DNA from: Mycobacterium sp.
GTDB lineage: Bacteria; Actinomycetota; Actinomycetes; Mycobacteriales; Mycobacteriaceae
Assembly: GCA_020438845.1 (NCBI GenBank)
Contig: JAGQTV010000009.1
Location: forward strand, 62,001-126,000
DNA length: 64,000 nt
Reading direction: 5' to 3'
In this document: piece by piece, positions 46,037 through 52,431 of the stretch
Position numbering within the stretch: position 1 is the stretch's first letter
Layout: each line of letters begins with the position of its first letter
Position numbers and translations under genes: made by a program
Notes under the pieces: generated by a model
Told to the model about the DNA's origin: nothing
Database searches by the model: none
The model's input: the letters and a program-made list of their open reading frames with translations, nothing else

Positions 46037-46128
46037 TCGACGCCGATGCCGAGCGAAGCGAGGAGGAGAAGTCGGACCATCAGGCCCCGCTCGACGCCGA
46101 TGCCGAGCGAAGCGAGGAGGAGAAGTCG
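46037..46128. repeat. Two 38-bp direct repeats upstream of proS
   Basis: Identical 38-base copies at 46037-46074 and 46091-46128, offset by 54 bases, lie in the proS promoter region. Each contains GAGCGAAGCGAGGAGGAG, part of which (GAGCGAAGCG) can fold on itself. They encode nothing I recognise. Confidence 0.85.
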
Positions 46129-46164: not shown

Positions 46165-46413
46165 ATGCCAGCGCACGCCTCCCAGCCCGGTTCGCCTACC
46201 GGCGCCGTGTTGGGCGAGGGCGCCTACACCGGGCGGATGCCGTCGCGTTCTGGCGACATGGTGGAATCACACGGCACCGCCCCTGTGCCGGCGGCCAACC
46301 GCTACGGCACCGCCCGGCGGTTTTTCACGGTGTGGTTCGCACCGCAGGTGAACGTGAATTTCCTGGTGGCAGCCGCCATGTACGGCGGTTTCCGCATCCT
46401 GCACGGGCGCTGA
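46165..46413 (+). pseudogene. N-terminal remnant of an NCS1 (cytosine/purine) permease
   Basis: The 82-residue frame resembles only the beginning of nucleobase:cation symporters. It has a polar lead with VESHGTAPVPAANRYGTARR, then the first-helix motif FFTVWFAPQVNVNF, and stops after MYGGFRILHGR. A complete permease has over 450 residues. The end is 16 bases before the DUF1611 gene, so the permease was probably truncated when that operon arrived. It might still be translated as a leader. Confidence 0.55.
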
Positions 46414-46429: not shown

Positions 46430-47515
46430 ATGCACAACACGTACACCGACCCTCCCCTGCCGGACACGTTCATACCGAGCCTGCTCCTGACCGACGGCCT
46501 GTTCGGTTCGGTTGAGGCCAAGACCGCGCATGGACTGCTGCGCTGCGGTGAACGGTTTTCACCACTGGCGGTGGTCGACCAAAAGTGCGCAGGCCTGCGC
46601 ACCACCGATGTGATCGCAGACCTGACCCGGGCGGTGCCGATCTTCGCAACCACCGAGGAGGCCCTCGGCGAATTCCCGGCGATCCGCACCGCTGTGGTCG
46701 GCATATCAACCCCTGGCGGACGGCTGACCGATTCGCTTCGCCGGACCCTCCTCGACTGCGCGGAACGCTCGCTCGACCTGGTGTCCGGGCTGCACGACTT
46801 TCTCGCCGACGATCCGGCGATCGCGCCGGCGGCGGCGGCCAGCGGGGCCGTCATCACCGACGTCCGCCGCACCCCTGAACGCGCGCTGCTGCATTCCTGG
46901 GACGGCAGCATCTTCGACGTCCGCGCGACCCGCGTGGCCGTTCTCGGTATGGACTGCATCGTCGGCAAGCGCACGACGGCCCAACTGCTGACCGCGACGA
47001 TCAATCAGCGTGGCCGGCGCGCACAGATGATCTACACGGGACAGACGGGGTGGATGCAGGGCAGCCGCTACGGAATCGTGCTGGATTCGCTGGTCGATGA
47101 CTTCATCACGGGCGAACTCGAGCATGCGATCGTCCGATGCGACCGCGATCTGCAACCCGACGTCATGATCATCGAAGGCCAATCCGGAATGCAGAACCCG
47201 GTGAGTCCGACCGGCCCGGCCATTCTGCTGTCCGCCGACGTCCACGCCGCGATACTTCACGTCATGCCCGCGCGCCGAACCTATTACGGCACCGACGTGC
47301 CGGTGAAGTCGCTGGAATCGGAGCTGACTCTGGTGCGTGCCTACGGCATTCCCGTCATTGGGATCTCGGTCAATTCGGCCGGTGCGGCTGCCCGCGGAAT
47401 CGATGGCCTCGCCCGGTTCTGCCGGTCGGAGTCGTTACCGCTGGCCGACCCGGTTCGTGACGGGGCCGGGGCGCTGGCCGATGCGGTGCTAGCGATCGAC
47501 GCCGATCGCCGATGA
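46430..47515 (+). CDS. DUF1611 family P-loop protein (DgcN-like)
   Basis: A 361-residue protein with an N-terminal Rossmann-like domain (residues 10-150) and a P-loop domain. Its Walker A-like GMDCIVGKRTT at 173-183 is the family pattern GxDCxxGKxTT, and MIIEGQSGMQNP near 240 is also conserved. The best-studied DUF1611 protein, DgcN, acetylates D-glutamate; other members are uncharacterised. The stop overlaps the next start (ATGA). The start lacks a strong ribosome site. It opens a three-gene operon with a double GNAT and an ATP-grasp ligase, absent here from M. tuberculosis. Confidence 0.88.
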   Translation: MHNTYTDPPLPDTFIPSLLLTDGLFGSVEAKTAHGLLRCGERFSPLAVVDQKCAGLRTTDVIADLTRAVPIFATTEEALGEFPAIRTAVVGISTPGGRLTDSLRRTLLDCAERSLDLVSGLHDFLADDPAIAPAAAASGAVITDVRRTPERALLHSWDGSIFDVRATRVAVLGMDCIVGKRTTAQLLTATINQRGRRAQMIYTGQTGWMQGSRYGIVLDSLVDDFITGELEHAIVRCDRDLQPDVMIIEGQSGMQNPVSPTGPAILLSADVHAAILHVMPARRTYYGTDVPVKSLESELTLVRAYGIPVIGISVNSAGAAARGIDGLARFCRSESLPLADPVRDGAGALADAVLAIDADRR

Positions 47516-48447
47516 CCGGCGCGGAGTTCGCCGACATCCCGACCCTGGCCCGGCTCACTCGGGAGGCCGAGGCGGCAACCGGACTCGTCGACATGACGAC
47601 GGTCAGGCTGGCGAAGCTCTTCGAGCCACAGCCGACCCGCCGGGCACATGTCGTCCCCGGACCCGATAGCCGTCCGGCCGGTTGGGTGGCCGTACGAGTC
47701 GACGGGTGCACCGGTGTGCTGACCGCCGACCAGTGCGTGTTCGACGGTACGTCCACCGCGTCGCGCACGCAGGTGGCCGATGAGCTCGTCGAATTGGCCG
47801 GCCGGATGGCGGCGGAGATCGCGACGGCATCCGGATCAGGAGAACCGGTCAGGCTGCGCTTCGAGGTCCCCCGTTTAGATACCGTCGTACGCCGGGCATT
47901 GCACGCACGCGGCGCGCGGGTCGTCGACACCCTGGCCCGAGTGCGGGCCGACATCAATGAGGTCCTGCGCAACTCGCCGGCGCAACCTGCGAACGTGGAA
48001 GTCCGGCGGGTCGAGACCGAGGACGACTTCGCCGCACACCACCGCATCCGCAATGTCGGCTACGCCCAGCTGCCCGACGACCGCCCCCTGACCGTCGGGC
48101 AGTGGCGAGATCAACTGCTCGACGAGCCGGGCAGCGCCCCCGACTCATGGTTGCTCGCTTTGGTGAACGGCGTGCCCGCCGGGATGCTCGCCGCCTCGCT
48201 GTCGAGGGCCGAACTCGGCGCCGTCTACATAGCCCATGCCGCGACATTGCCCGAGGCCCGGGGTTCGCGCTGCAACTACGCCTTGAACCGAGTGGCCCTG
48301 ACCTGGGGACTGGCCAAGGGGCTCACCTGGAGCCGGTCCCGGTGCCGGGCGGACGAGACACTCGGTGTCGGAGTCGGCGAGGTCAACTCGCGGGGCTACC
48401 TTGTCGTTGACTATCTGGACATCTGGGAGGTGCCGACCGTGTCATGA
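47512..48447 (+). CDS. Tandem GNAT-family N-acetyltransferase
   Basis: A 311-residue protein that looks like two fused GNAT domains. The first (about 1-150) is divergent. The second (about 155-305) has VYIAHAATLPEARGSRCNYA, where the acetyl-CoA loop and helix are expected, and ends with RGYLVVDYLDIWEV, a typical last strand pair. It would acetylate an amine made by its partners. It overlaps both neighbours by 4 bases (ATGA), so the three proteins are made in fixed proportion. Confidence 0.82.
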   Translation: MTGAEFADIPTLARLTREAEAATGLVDMTTVRLAKLFEPQPTRRAHVVPGPDSRPAGWVAVRVDGCTGVLTADQCVFDGTSTASRTQVADELVELAGRMAAEIATASGSGEPVRLRFEVPRLDTVVRRALHARGARVVDTLARVRADINEVLRNSPAQPANVEVRRVETEDDFAAHHRIRNVGYAQLPDDRPLTVGQWRDQLLDEPGSAPDSWLLALVNGVPAGMLAASLSRAELGAVYIAHAATLPEARGSRCNYALNRVALTWGLAKGLTWSRSRCRADETLGVGVGEVNSRGYLVVDYLDIWEVPTVS

Positions 48448-49625
48448 GGGTCTTGCTGTTGTTCCCGACGAACCAGAACAACCTCGAACGGTGGTGCACC
48501 GGAGCGCGCAGCCTGGGGATCGACCTCGCGGTCATCGAGTACACGAACTACCCACTGTGCTACCCGGCGTGGGTCGGGCCGGTGTTGCAGCACCACCGCA
48601 ACACCGACGACCCGAGCGAAATCGCACCCCTCGTAGGCGATCTCGACCTTTCCGGCGTCATCCCCTACAGCGAACCGGCCGTCCTGCTCGCCCACCGACT
48701 GGCTACCCGAATGGGTCTGCCCCACAACGCCCGATTGCGGCCGGAGTCGGTTCGCAACAAGACGCTCATGCGCGAGTTGTTGCGCGGCGCCGGTCTGCCC
48801 CAGCCCCGGACGCTGCTCACCACGAACGCCCCGATCTCGGTGTCGGATCTGCGCGGAGTGCGCTTTCCCGTCGTAGTCAAACCCGAGGACGGGGTCGGAA
48901 GCTTCGGTGTGACGTTGTCACACAACGCCGAAGATGCCGTCGCGGCCGTTTCGGCGATCCTGGCCGCCGATCCCTTCGCCAGCGGGGGATGGTCGATCGG
49001 CGACACCGTCACCATCGAGGAGTTAGTCGCCGGCCCCGACTACAGCTGTGAGGCGATCGTCCTCGGCGGCGAGGTGGCATGGTCGGGTATCACTACCCAC
49101 GTCAAGAACGGCGGACCGGATTTCGACGATATCGGCCACTGCTTCCCCGGCAGGACCGCGGCGCCGGCTTCGGCCGTGCGCGAGATGGCCAAGCGCGCCG
49201 TGGCTGGCCTTGGTATAGACGACGGCGTGTGCCACATCGAGTTCCGGGAATCCGATTCCGGCCCCGTCATCATCGAGATCGCCAATCGTGTTCCGGCAGG
49301 GGGCATTCCACAGATCGTCGAGTGGGCCGCCGGGGTCCGAATCGAGGAGTCGGCACTGTCGATCGCCGCCGGAATCGGCCGCGTCGCCCGTCACGTCCGC
49401 GGTCAGTGTCGCTACGCCGGCTCCCGCCTGCACTTCGCGTCGCATCCGGCGATCCCGTTTCCCGACGGCGCCGCCCTCGTCGAGTCCATAGTGCACGCCG
49501 GCCCGCACGCAGCCTCCGATGCGCGGCCCACCCAGATCACGGAGTTGGTGGGCATGTCAGTCGTGTGCGGCGACGATGAGCGTCCGATCCTGGAATGGCT
49601 CAACCAGGGCACCAACCGGCAGTAA
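48444..49625 (+). CDS. ATP-grasp ligase, L-amino-acid ligase-like
   Basis: A 393-residue ATP-grasp enzyme, probably forming an amide bond through an acyl phosphate. The preATP-grasp domain (1-100) contains GVIPYSEPAVLLAHRLATRM. The ATP-binding parts are VRNKTLMRELLRGAGLP, PVVVKPEDGVGSFGV and EELVAGPDYSCEAIV, and the magnesium ligands lie in CHIEFR and VIIEIANR. The layout is that of dipeptide ligases such as BacD and of carboxylase-like ligases. Its substrates are unknown. It is the last gene of the DUF1611-GNAT operon and ends 3 bases from a convergent exporter. Confidence 0.88.
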   Translation: MRVLLLFPTNQNNLERWCTGARSLGIDLAVIEYTNYPLCYPAWVGPVLQHHRNTDDPSEIAPLVGDLDLSGVIPYSEPAVLLAHRLATRMGLPHNARLRPESVRNKTLMRELLRGAGLPQPRTLLTTNAPISVSDLRGVRFPVVVKPEDGVGSFGVTLSHNAEDAVAAVSAILAADPFASGGWSIGDTVTIEELVAGPDYSCEAIVLGGEVAWSGITTHVKNGGPDFDDIGHCFPGRTAAPASAVREMAKRAVAGLGIDDGVCHIEFRESDSGPVIIEIANRVPAGGIPQIVEWAAGVRIEESALSIAAGIGRVARHVRGQCRYAGSRLHFASHPAIPFPDGAALVESIVHAGPHAASDARPTQITELVGMSVVCGDDERPILEWLNQGTNRQ

Positions 49626-49628
49626 GCC

Positions 49629-50627
49629 TCATCGGGCGAAACGCTTCGCGTGCTCCTCACGGACTACCTCCAGGTTGCCGCCTACGCTGGACTCTTCGCA
49701 ATGAACCCCGATCAGGCCCTCTTCGAGGTGCGGATCCTCGGTCCCAGCGGCTGCCTTGCGCACCAATGGCAACAACAGTGCCAACCCGGTGAGCACCAGA
49801 GCCATGCCGATGATTTCGCCCGCATCCAGGGTCTCATCGAAGACCAGAACCCCGGTGATGACCGCGACCACCGGGACGCTCTGATAGGTGGTTCCGGCCA
49901 GGACCGGTCCGCCCCGGCGCAGCACCCGCCAGAACAACACGTTGCCGATGCCCGCGGACAGCACCCCCAACGCCAGCACCGCGGCCACCGCCGGCCAGGT
50001 TAGTGCAGCGTGGGGGCTCCTGGCGAAGGCGACTTCCGGGGCGAGCAGAACGGCGGTGGCAGCCAGCTGGGCCACGGTCAGCTGGGTGGGGCTGAAGGTC
50101 GAGTCCGGGAAGAAATCGGCCCCCAGAATCCCCGCCAGGGCGAAAACCGCGGCGGCGAGCAGCCCGAGGCAGAGCCCGAGATGGTCGAGGTGCGCCGTCG
50201 GCGAAAGCAATACCGCCACCCCGACCACTCCCAGGGATACGCTGACCCACTTGAGCGACGGGATCGGCGTGCGCCGTAGCCAGTAGTAGACAACCGAGAT
50301 CAGCGGGGTCATCGAGCACAGGACCGCCACCATGCCGGAGGGCATCCTCAGTTGAGCTGCGGCGGCGCTGACCTGCCCCGACGCCGTGAGGATGCTCAGC
50401 GCCACGATGCGAACGACGCCGCCGCGCCCCAGCCGGGGCAGCCCGGAGCCGCCGGCCACCAGCAGGACGGTCAGGAAGGACGCGCCGATCACCGCCCGCC
50501 ACAATGCCACCTCGGCGGGGGTGAATGCTCCCAGCGCCACCTCGGTGACCGCGTACGAGCCGCCCCACACCGCCACCAACGGCAGGTAGTCCAGCAGAAC
50601 CGAACCCCGCACCTCCGCGGCCTTCAT
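49629..50627 (-). CDS. EamA/DMT-superfamily transporter
   Basis: A 332-residue protein with ten membrane helices in two EamA repeats (about 15-140 and 155-290). A short cytoplasmic tail carries an HLEEGLIGVHCEES stretch. Family members export amino acids and metabolites. Its position tail-to-tail with the ATP-grasp operon makes it a candidate exporter for that product, but there is no shared promoter to prove it. Confidence 0.88.
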   Translation of the reverse strand: MKAAEVRGSVLLDYLPLVAVWGGSYAVTEVALGAFTPAEVALWRAVIGASFLTVLLVAGGSGLPRLGRGGVVRIVALSILTASGQVSAAAAQLRMPSGMVAVLCSMTPLISVVYYWLRRTPIPSLKWVSVSLGVVGVAVLLSPTAHLDHLGLCLGLLAAAVFALAGILGADFFPDSTFSPTQLTVAQLAATAVLLAPEVAFARSPHAALTWPAVAAVLALGVLSAGIGNVLFWRVLRRGGPVLAGTTYQSVPVVAVITGVLVFDETLDAGEIIGMALVLTGLALLLPLVRKAAAGTEDPHLEEGLIGVHCEESSVGGNLEVVREEHAKRFAR

Positions 50628-50703: not shown

Positions 50704-52431
50704 TCAACACTGATGCGGTTGGGATCCGCCGAGCAGGGCGGTGTCGTAGCGGCGGGCCACACCCTTGACCGACTCCATGAAGCTGTCGAGGTCGACGCGG
50801 CGTCCTGCGATCCACGTGCCCATGACCTGCATGGTGTCCTGCAACCGGGTGGGGTCAACGGTGTAGGGGTCGGTATTGAGCAGCACGAAGTCGGCGAGCT
50901 TGCCCACCTCGATCGAGCCGATTTCGTGGTCGCGTTTCTGCTGCCACGCGGCGTTGGTGGTGTGCGCCTGCAGCGCCTCGTCCAACGACAGAGCCTGCTC
51001 GGGTGCATGCACGGCGCCTGAGGCGCTCCGCCGGGTGACGGCGTTCTGAATGTTGAGCCACGGCAGCGGCGGCGACAGATAGCCGTCGTTGTGGAACGTG
51101 GGGCGCACACCGCCGTCGTAGGCGTCGCGGTAGGGCTGCCAGCGCGCGCCGTAGGACGGTTCGAAGATGACCCCGTCGTACAGATCCCCCCAGTACAGCG
51201 ATTGAAAAGGCGACATCGAGGCGGTGACGCCCAGACTCCCGGCCCGGGCACACTGTTCCCGGGAAGGGGTAGCGAAGTGCTCGACCCGCCAGCGGTGGTC
51301 GCTACCGGCCAAACCCAGGCGGCCCAAGACCTGTTCGTAGCCGTCCAACACGACGTCGATGCCGGCATCACCGTTGATGTGCGTGGCGATCTGGGTGCCG
51401 GAGTCCGCGAACTGGCCCACTAGAGAGAGGAATTGGTCCAGGGAATAATTCAGGACGGACAGTCCTGGGGCGGTGCCGACCGGGACGTCGGCGATGCGGG
51501 CGCGATCGGAGTCCAGGTAGGGAACGCTGATCGCGGCCGTGCCGATCGACGGGCTTCCGTCCATCCAGATCTTGTAGCCGACGCGGCGGATCATGGGCGA
51601 CAGCTCGCCGAAGTCCAGCGACGAGTGCGCGCCCGGGTCATAGGTGGTCTGATAGAGCGAGTACCGCACCGGGCAGCCGGGCAACTCCGCCAACGTCTGC
51701 ATCGGGGCCCGCAGCGAGCTGATGAACCCCAGATCCCCGACGGCGGTGAAACCGTTGCTCGCCAGCGTCGAATACCAGGCGCCGAGGTTGACCAGGGGCG
51801 ACGGCACGACACCGGGCAGGAAGGCAGCCATCGCGGTCAGCGTGGCCTGGGTTTCGAAGCCGACGCCGCCGGCAGTCCCGTCCGGCCTACGGGTCCACCT
51901 GGCGTCGGGGGTGTCCGCCGGCGGGGTGGCGTTCTTCCAGCCGAACAACCCGGTGGCCCGGGAATTGAAGTAGAGAGCGTGCCCGGTGATGTCGAAGATG
52001 AGCACCGGATGGTCGGGGAAGTACTTGTCCAGGCTGGCCCGGTCCGGCATCGGGATCGCCAGCAGCAGCCGGTCCAGGCCGTTGAACAGCAGGGGCTGAC
52101 CTGGCGGAGTCTCGCGGCGTAGCCGATCGAAGAGTACCTCGACGTCGTTCCAGGTGGGATAGCCGACGAACGGGGCGATCCAGTGCGCCGGTTGCTGGCA
52201 AAGCACCGCCGCCGGCACGGGGTGGTCGTGGGCCTGGATGAAGCCGGGCATCAGAACACTCGAACCAAGGTCACTCACCGGGGCGTCGGGCGCCTGCGCC
52301 CGACATTGCGCCAGGGAGCCCACCGCGACTATTTCACCGGAGTCGGCGTCCATCAGGACGGCTTCTGCCCGCGGCTGGGCGGGGTTCATCGTGATGATGG
52401 AGGCGGCCTTGAGCACTGAAAGGCCGCCCAT
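50704..52431 (-). CDS. YtcJ-type amidohydrolase
   Basis: A 575-residue metal-dependent hydrolase of the amidohydrolase-3 family. The HxH metal motif is in GFIQAHDHPVPA near residue 72. The bridging-lysine region is GYKIWMDGSP, the next histidines are in ATHINGDAG and RVEHFATP, and the aspartate is in TFHNDGYLSP. The C-terminus (HEIGSIEVGKLADFVLL) completes the beta sandwich. The start ATG overlaps the stop of the efflux gene (TGATG). The substrate is unknown; coupling to a drug pump suggests an exported or detoxified amide. Confidence 0.9.
   Translation of the reverse strand: MGGLSVLKAASIITMNPAQPRAEAVLMDADSGEIVAVGSLAQCRAQAPDAPVSDLGSSVLMPGFIQAHDHPVPAAVLCQQPAHWIAPFVGYPTWNDVEVLFDRLRRETPPGQPLLFNGLDRLLLAIPMPDRASLDKYFPDHPVLIFDITGHALYFNSRATGLFGWKNATPPADTPDARWTRRPDGTAGGVGFETQATLTAMAAFLPGVVPSPLVNLGAWYSTLASNGFTAVGDLGFISSLRAPMQTLAELPGCPVRYSLYQTTYDPGAHSSLDFGELSPMIRRVGYKIWMDGSPSIGTAAISVPYLDSDRARIADVPVGTAPGLSVLNYSLDQFLSLVGQFADSGTQIATHINGDAGIDVVLDGYEQVLGRLGLAGSDHRWRVEHFATPSREQCARAGSLGVTASMSPFQSLYWGDLYDGVIFEPSYGARWQPYRDAYDGGVRPTFHNDGYLSPPLPWLNIQNAVTRRSASGAVHAPEQALSLDEALQAHTTNAAWQQKRDHEIGSIEVGKLADFVLLNTDPYTVDPTRLQDTMQVMGTWIAGRRVDLDSFMESVKGVARRYDTALLGGSQPHQC

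Follow-up and report, generated by a model that had tools for sequence, protein, structure and literature searches.

What is encoded by a compact block of genes that separates proS from efpA in one mycobacterium, and what could it make? The block is found in a stretch of 64,000 nucleotides from Mycobacterium sp. (assembly GCA_020438845.1, contig JAGQTV010000009.1, positions 62,001 to 126,000; C75:62001-126000 in our internal numbering of the 4.5 Mb source genome), which is called the window here. Three of its genes, referred to as the trio, encode a DUF1611 protein, a two-domain GNAT-fold protein and an ATP-grasp ligase. Judged from sequence, the gene set is real, unusual and new as a combination, a singleton assembled from known kinds of enzymes with predicted activities. 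Our tentative reading, possible but somewhat short of probable, is that the insert holds a small, young pathway for an N-acylated amino-acid amide or dipeptide, which it would both synthesize and export. The trio is arranged as follows.

46430..47515, + strand: gene 1, DUF1611 protein of 361 amino acids, putative N-acyltransferase (PF07755 and PF17396; exporter-linked mycobacterial clade).
47512..48447, + strand: gene 2, two-domain GNAT-fold protein of 311 amino acids without the canonical coenzyme A (CoA) pyrophosphate loop, from its alignment with the tandem GNATs of loci L005-L007.
48444..49625, + strand: gene 3, ATP-grasp ligase of the L-amino-acid-ligase type, 393 amino acids (PF13535; solved chain 3vot).

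Each of the three open reading frames (ORFs) has an ATG start, and an ATGA overlap is observed at both junctions. No alternative in-frame start codon is present between the preceding stop codon and the ATG of gene 1, nor among the 17 codons before the ATG of gene 2. The gene 1 protein is assigned to the DUF1611 superfamily by its sequence, with both Pfam domains above cut-off (DUF1611, PF07755, 2e-43 and 148.6 bits against a cut-off of 25; DUF1611_N, PF17396, 1.8e-19 and 70.3 bits against 22.6). Its solved homologues are 2g0t, 2obn and 7xrj. Of 55 near-invariant DUF1611 positions 48 are kept, and the P-loop (G173, D175, G179-T183) is intact. In Pfam, gene 2 matches Acetyltransf_1 alone (E 0.077, below cut-off), and no NCBIfam match is found. 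The protein aligns over residues 29-270 with tandem GNATs from three genomes of the same order (L005-L007; E 1e-14 to 1e-16 in a local phmmer search of 37 ORFs), and by this alignment it is homologous to tandem GNATs along both domains. A profile of gene 2 and these three relatives finds 3tt2 and the mycothiol synthase 2c27, hits that may rest on the relatives in the profile rather than on the window protein.

Gene 3 belongs to ATP-grasp_4 (PF13535, E 7.9e-18), and the L-amino acid ligase BL00235 (3vot) is its closest solved chain, at 4e-16 over residues 68-304. A five-protein profile reaches 8e-63 to 3vot. Residues K146, E192, H264, E266, E278 and R282, which we take to be ATP/metal residues of the ligase type, are invariant in the five ATP-grasp proteins aligned. 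The predicted protein thus combines an ATP-grasp fold with the conserved ligase-type residues of L-amino-acid ligases. The original prediction had described three genes joined by ATGA at both junctions, a DUF1611 P-loop protein at the start and an L-amino-acid-ligase-like ATP-grasp enzyme at the end, and the ORF coordinates, the Pfam scores, the kept P-loop and the 3vot match bear this out. It had named clustering of the ligase with an enzyme of unrelated primary metabolism as an adverse outcome; the best solved matches are L-amino-acid ligases. Its two-domain GNAT stands in so far as gene 2 aligns with the tandem GNATs, but the assignment is weaker than was implied, given the Pfam E-value and the absence of an NCBIfam match.

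The trio has no counterpart in the genomes and loci searched. Gene 2 is found in one of 396 congeners at E<=1e-15 (the source genome itself), in four of 100 relatives at E<=1e-10 (the source genome and L005-L007) and in two of 208 phylum genomes at E<=1e-8 (the source genome and L005). At none of 80 GTDB DUF1611 loci is a relative of the GNAT or the ligase present, and none is seen at any DUF1611 locus examined except the window's own. A scan of GTDB contigs for close relatives of the GNAT confirmed none of 81 pattern matches, the patterns being short exact peptides that would miss distant relatives. Relatives of gene 3 at E<=1e-25 are found in seven of 386 phylum genomes, all but the source genome's own at 35% identity or less. 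Around four of the six other phylum ligase genes no DUF1611 gene was seen; at one of these four a PALP gene, for a pyridoxal phosphate enzyme, adjoins by Pfam, and the rest were judged by eye. Weaker ligase matches (E<=1e-5) are present in all four congeners tried, and three plasmid relatives of the ligase adjoin cysteine-synthase-like, argininosuccinate-lyase-like or non-ribosomal peptide synthetase (NRPS) genes. Since no second trio was found, the trio is a singleton in the searched set. A conserved three-gene system or operon is not supported, as the GNAT, ligase and DUF1611 genes are not adjacent in any other searched genome. Plasmid or phage cargo was likewise rejected: the GNAT has no match at E<=1e-5 in the plasmid collection, when viral contigs were scanned for close relatives of the ligase, none of five pattern matches was confirmed, and the phage records matched by DUF1611 are all of Erwinia phages.

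The block extends beyond the trio. The gap from efpA to proS, measured between the ends of the matches, is 6413 bases in the window, an insert of about 6.4 kb, while it is only 21-538 bases in 10 of 12 congeners examined (the 538-base gap belongs to a match that ends 15 residues short of the EfpA terminus). In M. tuberculosis, too, efpA and proS are neighbours, so the source genome should not be of that species. The proS flanks examined of the remaining two congeners showed no efpA; L173 is a short locus, and L174 carries an NCS1 permease ORF upstream. Same-genus loci with names are Mycobacterium and Mycolicibacterium records. The most similar proS of the 12 (89%, L172) has a gap of 56 bases, and the sequence immediately before it matches that of the window. 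Besides the trio on the forward strand, the insert contains four further features.

46038..46128, no strand: 37-base direct repeat in two copies, between proS and the rest of the insert (22-base core found twice; 0 in 100 shuffles).
46165..46413, + strand: probable NCS1 purine/cytosine permease gene remnant of 82 amino acids (62% over 63 amino acids to the permease ORF that L174 has upstream of proS).
49629..50627, - strand: EamA-type exporter of 332 amino acids (PF00892, 2.4e-23), 3 bases beyond the ligase stop.
50704..52431, - strand: Amidohydro_3 metal hydrolase of 575 amino acids (PF07969, 2.2e-55).

The permease remnant matches PF02133 only at E 0.014, below the Pfam cut-off. The EamA and Amidohydro_3 genes are on the reverse strand and therefore convergent with the trio. 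The start of the amidohydrolase gene and the efpA stop overlap by one base (TGATG); no match to the amidohydrolase is found in the proS flanks examined of the 12 congeners, and it is counted as part of the insert. Among solved chains it is closest to two uncharacterized metal-dependent hydrolases, so that a part in the pathway is possible but not certain. The GC content at third codon positions (GC3) of the trio is 0.80-0.83, and its codon usage is inside the range of the three neighbouring genes compared. A foreign composition of the insert is not seen, as neither measure stands out against these neighbours. Between 46000 and 52600 one promoter-like and one terminator-like match are found, not above shuffled sequence and neither upstream of the trio. 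A phage defence system was considered and rejected, with no PADLOC family at E<=0.01 for the five insert proteins.

What gene 1 might do is suggested by the company of its family. At E<=1e-40, 11 of 396 phylum genomes have a DUF1611 gene. A racemase-type gene (MR_MLE or Orr-like) is a neighbour at 79 of 107 DUF1611 loci, and none of the partners sought is seen at 22, in a count that includes the window's own locus and one duplicate (L089 = L133). In the GTDB scan, which covers the best 80 of 370 confirmed loci and thus the nearest relatives only, an MR_MLE gene lies within 1.6 kb of DUF1611 in 60 of the 80, or in 62 when the limit is loosened to 6 kb; some of the contigs stop a short way from the gene. 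One MR_MLE neighbour scanned resembles both L-Ala-D/L-Glu epimerase and DgcA, below both cut-offs. With the second DUF1611 protein of the source genome as query, a DUF1611 gene is present at E<=1e-30 in 18 of 297 congeners: the source genome with two copies, three close ones (G328, G326 and G200) and 14 that are about 40% identical. The surroundings of DUF1611 were read in ten of these 14 (L134-L143), each with an Orr-like racemase gene at most 1.6 kb away. In both loci read closely (L134, L136) this gene overlaps DUF1611, and the Orr-like protein of L134 scores 321.7 bits against the NCBIfam Orr cut-off of 480. The same pair is also found on a Phaeobacter plasmid. As DUF1611 is mostly found beside racemase-type genes, N-acylation of an amino acid, perhaps in its D-form, is suggested.

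The closest relatives of gene 1 keep a different partner, an exporter. In L033 (the same contig as that of G328 by coordinates) and L132 (G326) the DUF1611 stop is followed 2 bases later by the start of an EamA gene. L133 (G200) has an MFS-like gene overlapping the end of DUF1611, with an MFS match of 30.8 bits, under the Pfam cut-off of 33.4. The second DUF1611 gene of the source genome (L020:8574-10037, G000:C37) is 48% identical to gene 1 and is directly followed by a truncated EamA remnant, at the place where L033 has the full EamA gene. The window EamA protein shares 61% and 55% identity with those of L033 and L132, and these two share 52%; among 198 congeners sampled, the other 197 have no EamA match at E<=1e-50. 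This sample evidently lacks G326 and G328, as their EamA genes would have matched. From the identities and this null result, the window EamA type accompanies the exporter-linked DUF1611 clade in each case seen, though in the window on the other strand. In a careful tree (62 rows), gene 1 joins the three EamA-linked rows at 100/94, and the MFS-linked row comes next at 100/97; this tree keeps 20 of 60 MR_MLE rows and leaves out the duplicate L089 and the long branches L029, L030, L170 and L171. In our reading, gene 1 encodes a fast-diverged relative of a protein resident in mycobacteria, one encoded ahead of an exporter.

Further DUF1611 surroundings were observed outside the mycobacteria. Peptide-ABC-transporter-like genes follow gammaproteobacterial DUF1611 genes at L059:8487-13654 and L081:4317-11478, and in two Bacteroidota loci (L039:8781-11026, L040:865-3134) DUF1611 overlaps the end of an aminotransferase-like gene, all by eye. 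DUF1611 matches occur in 12 phage records, all from Erwinia phages; the five listed are about 266 kb long, with 29.5% identity over 64% of the query. In Erwinia phage pEa_SNUABM_32 (NC_061444.1, 266 kb; L189:4757-9635) the DUF1611 protein scores 306.9 bits to DgcN against a cut-off of 480. Its gene overlaps with a preceding gene of unknown kind (420 amino acids) and with an alanine-racemase-like gene that follows; an asparagine-synthase-like gene is next downstream, and a methyltransferase-like gene lies upstream of DUF1611. DUF1611, asparagine synthase and methyltransferase genes are also listed for Dickeya phage AD1 in PMC6143709.

Based on these families, a route of four steps can be proposed. 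As its family suggests, the DUF1611 enzyme would acylate, probably acetylate, the amino group of an amino acid that may be a D-form or acidic. The ATP-grasp enzyme, with presumed substrates, would activate the carboxylate of this product as an acyl phosphate and couple it with an amine or another amino acid, as its fold and residues indicate. The two-domain GNAT-fold protein might then acylate the product or protect the cell from it; here the fold is supported and the activity uncertain. Finally, the EamA protein would export the product, the linkage being shown for the family and the direction taken from the family name, by which EamA proteins are exporters. The original prediction had placed the trio correctly between proS and efpA but left the EamA and amidohydrolase genes there unmentioned, so that its compact three-enzyme pathway omits two genes of the same insert. 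The N-acylated amino-acid product that it proposed is plausible from the racemase-type neighbours of DUF1611 and the surroundings of the plasmid ligase relatives, but less so from the DgcN score of gene 1 and the missing CoA loop of gene 2. It had also taken rare co-occurrence of the three families elsewhere as a sign against itself, and the trio is found nowhere else in everything searched.

Several observations weigh against such a pathway. With no second trio, there is no conservation to argue from. The EamA gene is on the opposite strand and hence not in the same transcript as the trio, and no racemase gene is found among the insert proteins scanned. Gene 1 scores 114 bits to the DgcN equivalog model NF041892, far below its cut-off of 480, compared with 132.2 bits for the L020 paralogue. 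Seven of the 55 near-invariant positions are changed in gene 1 (D57, A58, G59, D63, A93, L254 and H278) and one in the paralogue; from this pattern, the nucleotide or CoA site may be conserved and the substrate site altered. The branch of gene 1 in the careful tree is 1.26, against 0.19-0.30 for its EamA-linked sisters. A quick tree of 106 rows supports the EamA grouping with only 93 in the approximate likelihood-ratio test (SH-aLRT) and places the MFS-linked row in another, open fork. In GNATs the acetyl-CoA loop carries the motif [QR]xxGx[GA]. It is absent from the second domain of gene 2, where RGSRCN is aligned to RRRGVG of L005-L007; the sole match in gene 2, at residue 180, is outside the aligned loop, and the first domain has no motif at the matching place in gene 2 or in L005-L007. 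The protein may have other means of binding CoA, lack activity or take a different donor.

Such a donor could be aminoacyl-tRNA. In this long shot, the tandem GNAT without a CoA loop would use aminoacyl-tRNA and, with an exporter-linked DUF1611 N-acyltransferase diverged in its substrate pocket and an amino-acid ligase, give an exported N-acyl peptide without NRPS, a new kind of compact pathway arisen in one mycobacterium. The ground for it is that the GNAT-family enzymes of argolaphos, dehydrophos and fosfazinomycin are tRNA-dependent, as stated in PMC11867202.

The insert could also serve detoxification and export, which we consider unlikely but not far-fetched. DUF1611 would N-acylate a toxic amino acid or analogue, EamA would export it, the GNAT and the ATP-grasp enzyme would cap it further, and the product would be waste. 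The sister loci L033 and L132, with DUF1611 and an exporter but no relative of the ligase or the GNAT, speak for this, and a precedent is the N-acetyltransferase CstC, which inactivates cystocin in a producer (PMC11641026). However, an ATP-consuming ligation is in our judgement unusual for simple detoxification, and the surroundings of the three plasmid ligase relatives look biosynthetic.

It is quite unlikely that the cluster is an inserted fragment in decay, with the DUF1611 and GNAT activities lost. The singleton status of the trio, the long branch of gene 1 with its seven changed positions, the GNAT without a canonical CoA loop and the adjoining permease remnant are all compatible with decay. 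On the other hand, the three frames are full-length with exact ATGA coupling, the P-loop and the ATP-grasp residues are complete, and codon usage stays within the range of the neighbours. Recycling of D-amino acids or cell-wall peptides in the manner of DgcN/DgcA, for growth and not for export, is very improbable. The MR_MLE genes close to DUF1611 in 60 of 80 GTDB loci, one of them resembling L-Ala-D/L-Glu epimerase and DgcA, and the peptide-ABC-transporter-like genes of the two gammaproteobacterial loci speak for it; but no MR_MLE is found among the six proteins scanned (trio, EamA, amidohydrolase and EfpA), the four MR_MLE matches of the genome are on other contigs, and the partner transporter is of the exporter type. 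Least probable is an osmolyte route like that to N-acetylglutaminylglutamine amide, in which an acetyltransferase and an ATP-grasp enzyme, the two kinds known from that pathway, would make an N-acetyl dipeptide kept in the cell: TIGR03103 touches the ATP-grasp region at E 0.049, but scores 12.2 bits where the cut-off is 569, the known synthetase is a fused protein, no Asn_synthase is found among the six proteins scanned, and an exporter gene is present.

If the pathway of synthesis and export is true, the insert would be a small, easily expressed source of a new mycobacterial metabolite and would offer a way to probe the function of DUF1611 proteins outside the DgcN group. Besides the racemase-linked majority, our analysis shows an exporter-linked mycobacterial branch of DUF1611 and one case joined to an amide-type ligase. 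In the literature searched, just two papers mention DUF1611. A search combining mycobacteria, N-acetyl-D-glutamate and exporter gave no match, and one for DgcN gave no match on the enzyme itself among the matches listed.

A comparison with known systems shows partial likeness to each. NCBIfam names DgcN as an N-acetyltransferase (NF041892) and DgcA as N-acetyl-D-Glu racemase (NF042940), in one D-glutamate pathway; our view of this chemistry draws in part on these names and on PMC12363236. Gene 1 is a DUF1611 homologue with an intact P-loop, and DUF1611 elsewhere is often paired with MR_MLE. Unlike that system, the insert is without DgcA among the six proteins scanned, and gene 1 falls in the exporter-linked clade with its low DgcN score and changed positions. 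The two GNAT domains per chain are shared with mycothiol synthase MshD and other tandem GNATs (2c27, 3tt2) through the joint profile with the three relatives, whereas gene 2 alone has no NCBIfam match and its CoA loop is not conserved. N-acetylglutaminylglutamine amide synthetase (TIGR03103) follows a similar logic of acetyltransferase and ATP-grasp enzyme, but as one fused protein, and the score of gene 3 leaves it outside that family.

The best NCBIfam match of gene 3 is the PRK02186 group (NF002563, named argininosuccinate lyase), at 142.9 bits over residues 50-326, and its plasmid relatives are annotated as lyase family proteins. The score is under the cut-off of 625, and with 393 amino acids against a model of 890, gene 3 has no room for a lyase part. 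The phosphonoalamide ligases PnaB and PnaC (PMC11867202) are ATP-grasp ligases that form peptides without NRPS, in a setting that differs from the insert, where no phosphonate gene is found among the proteins scanned. Although its relatives in the phylum sample are at most 35% identical, gene 3 shares the predicted ATP-grasp fold and the conserved ligase-type residues with the L-amino-acid ligases BL00235 (3vot) and BacD.

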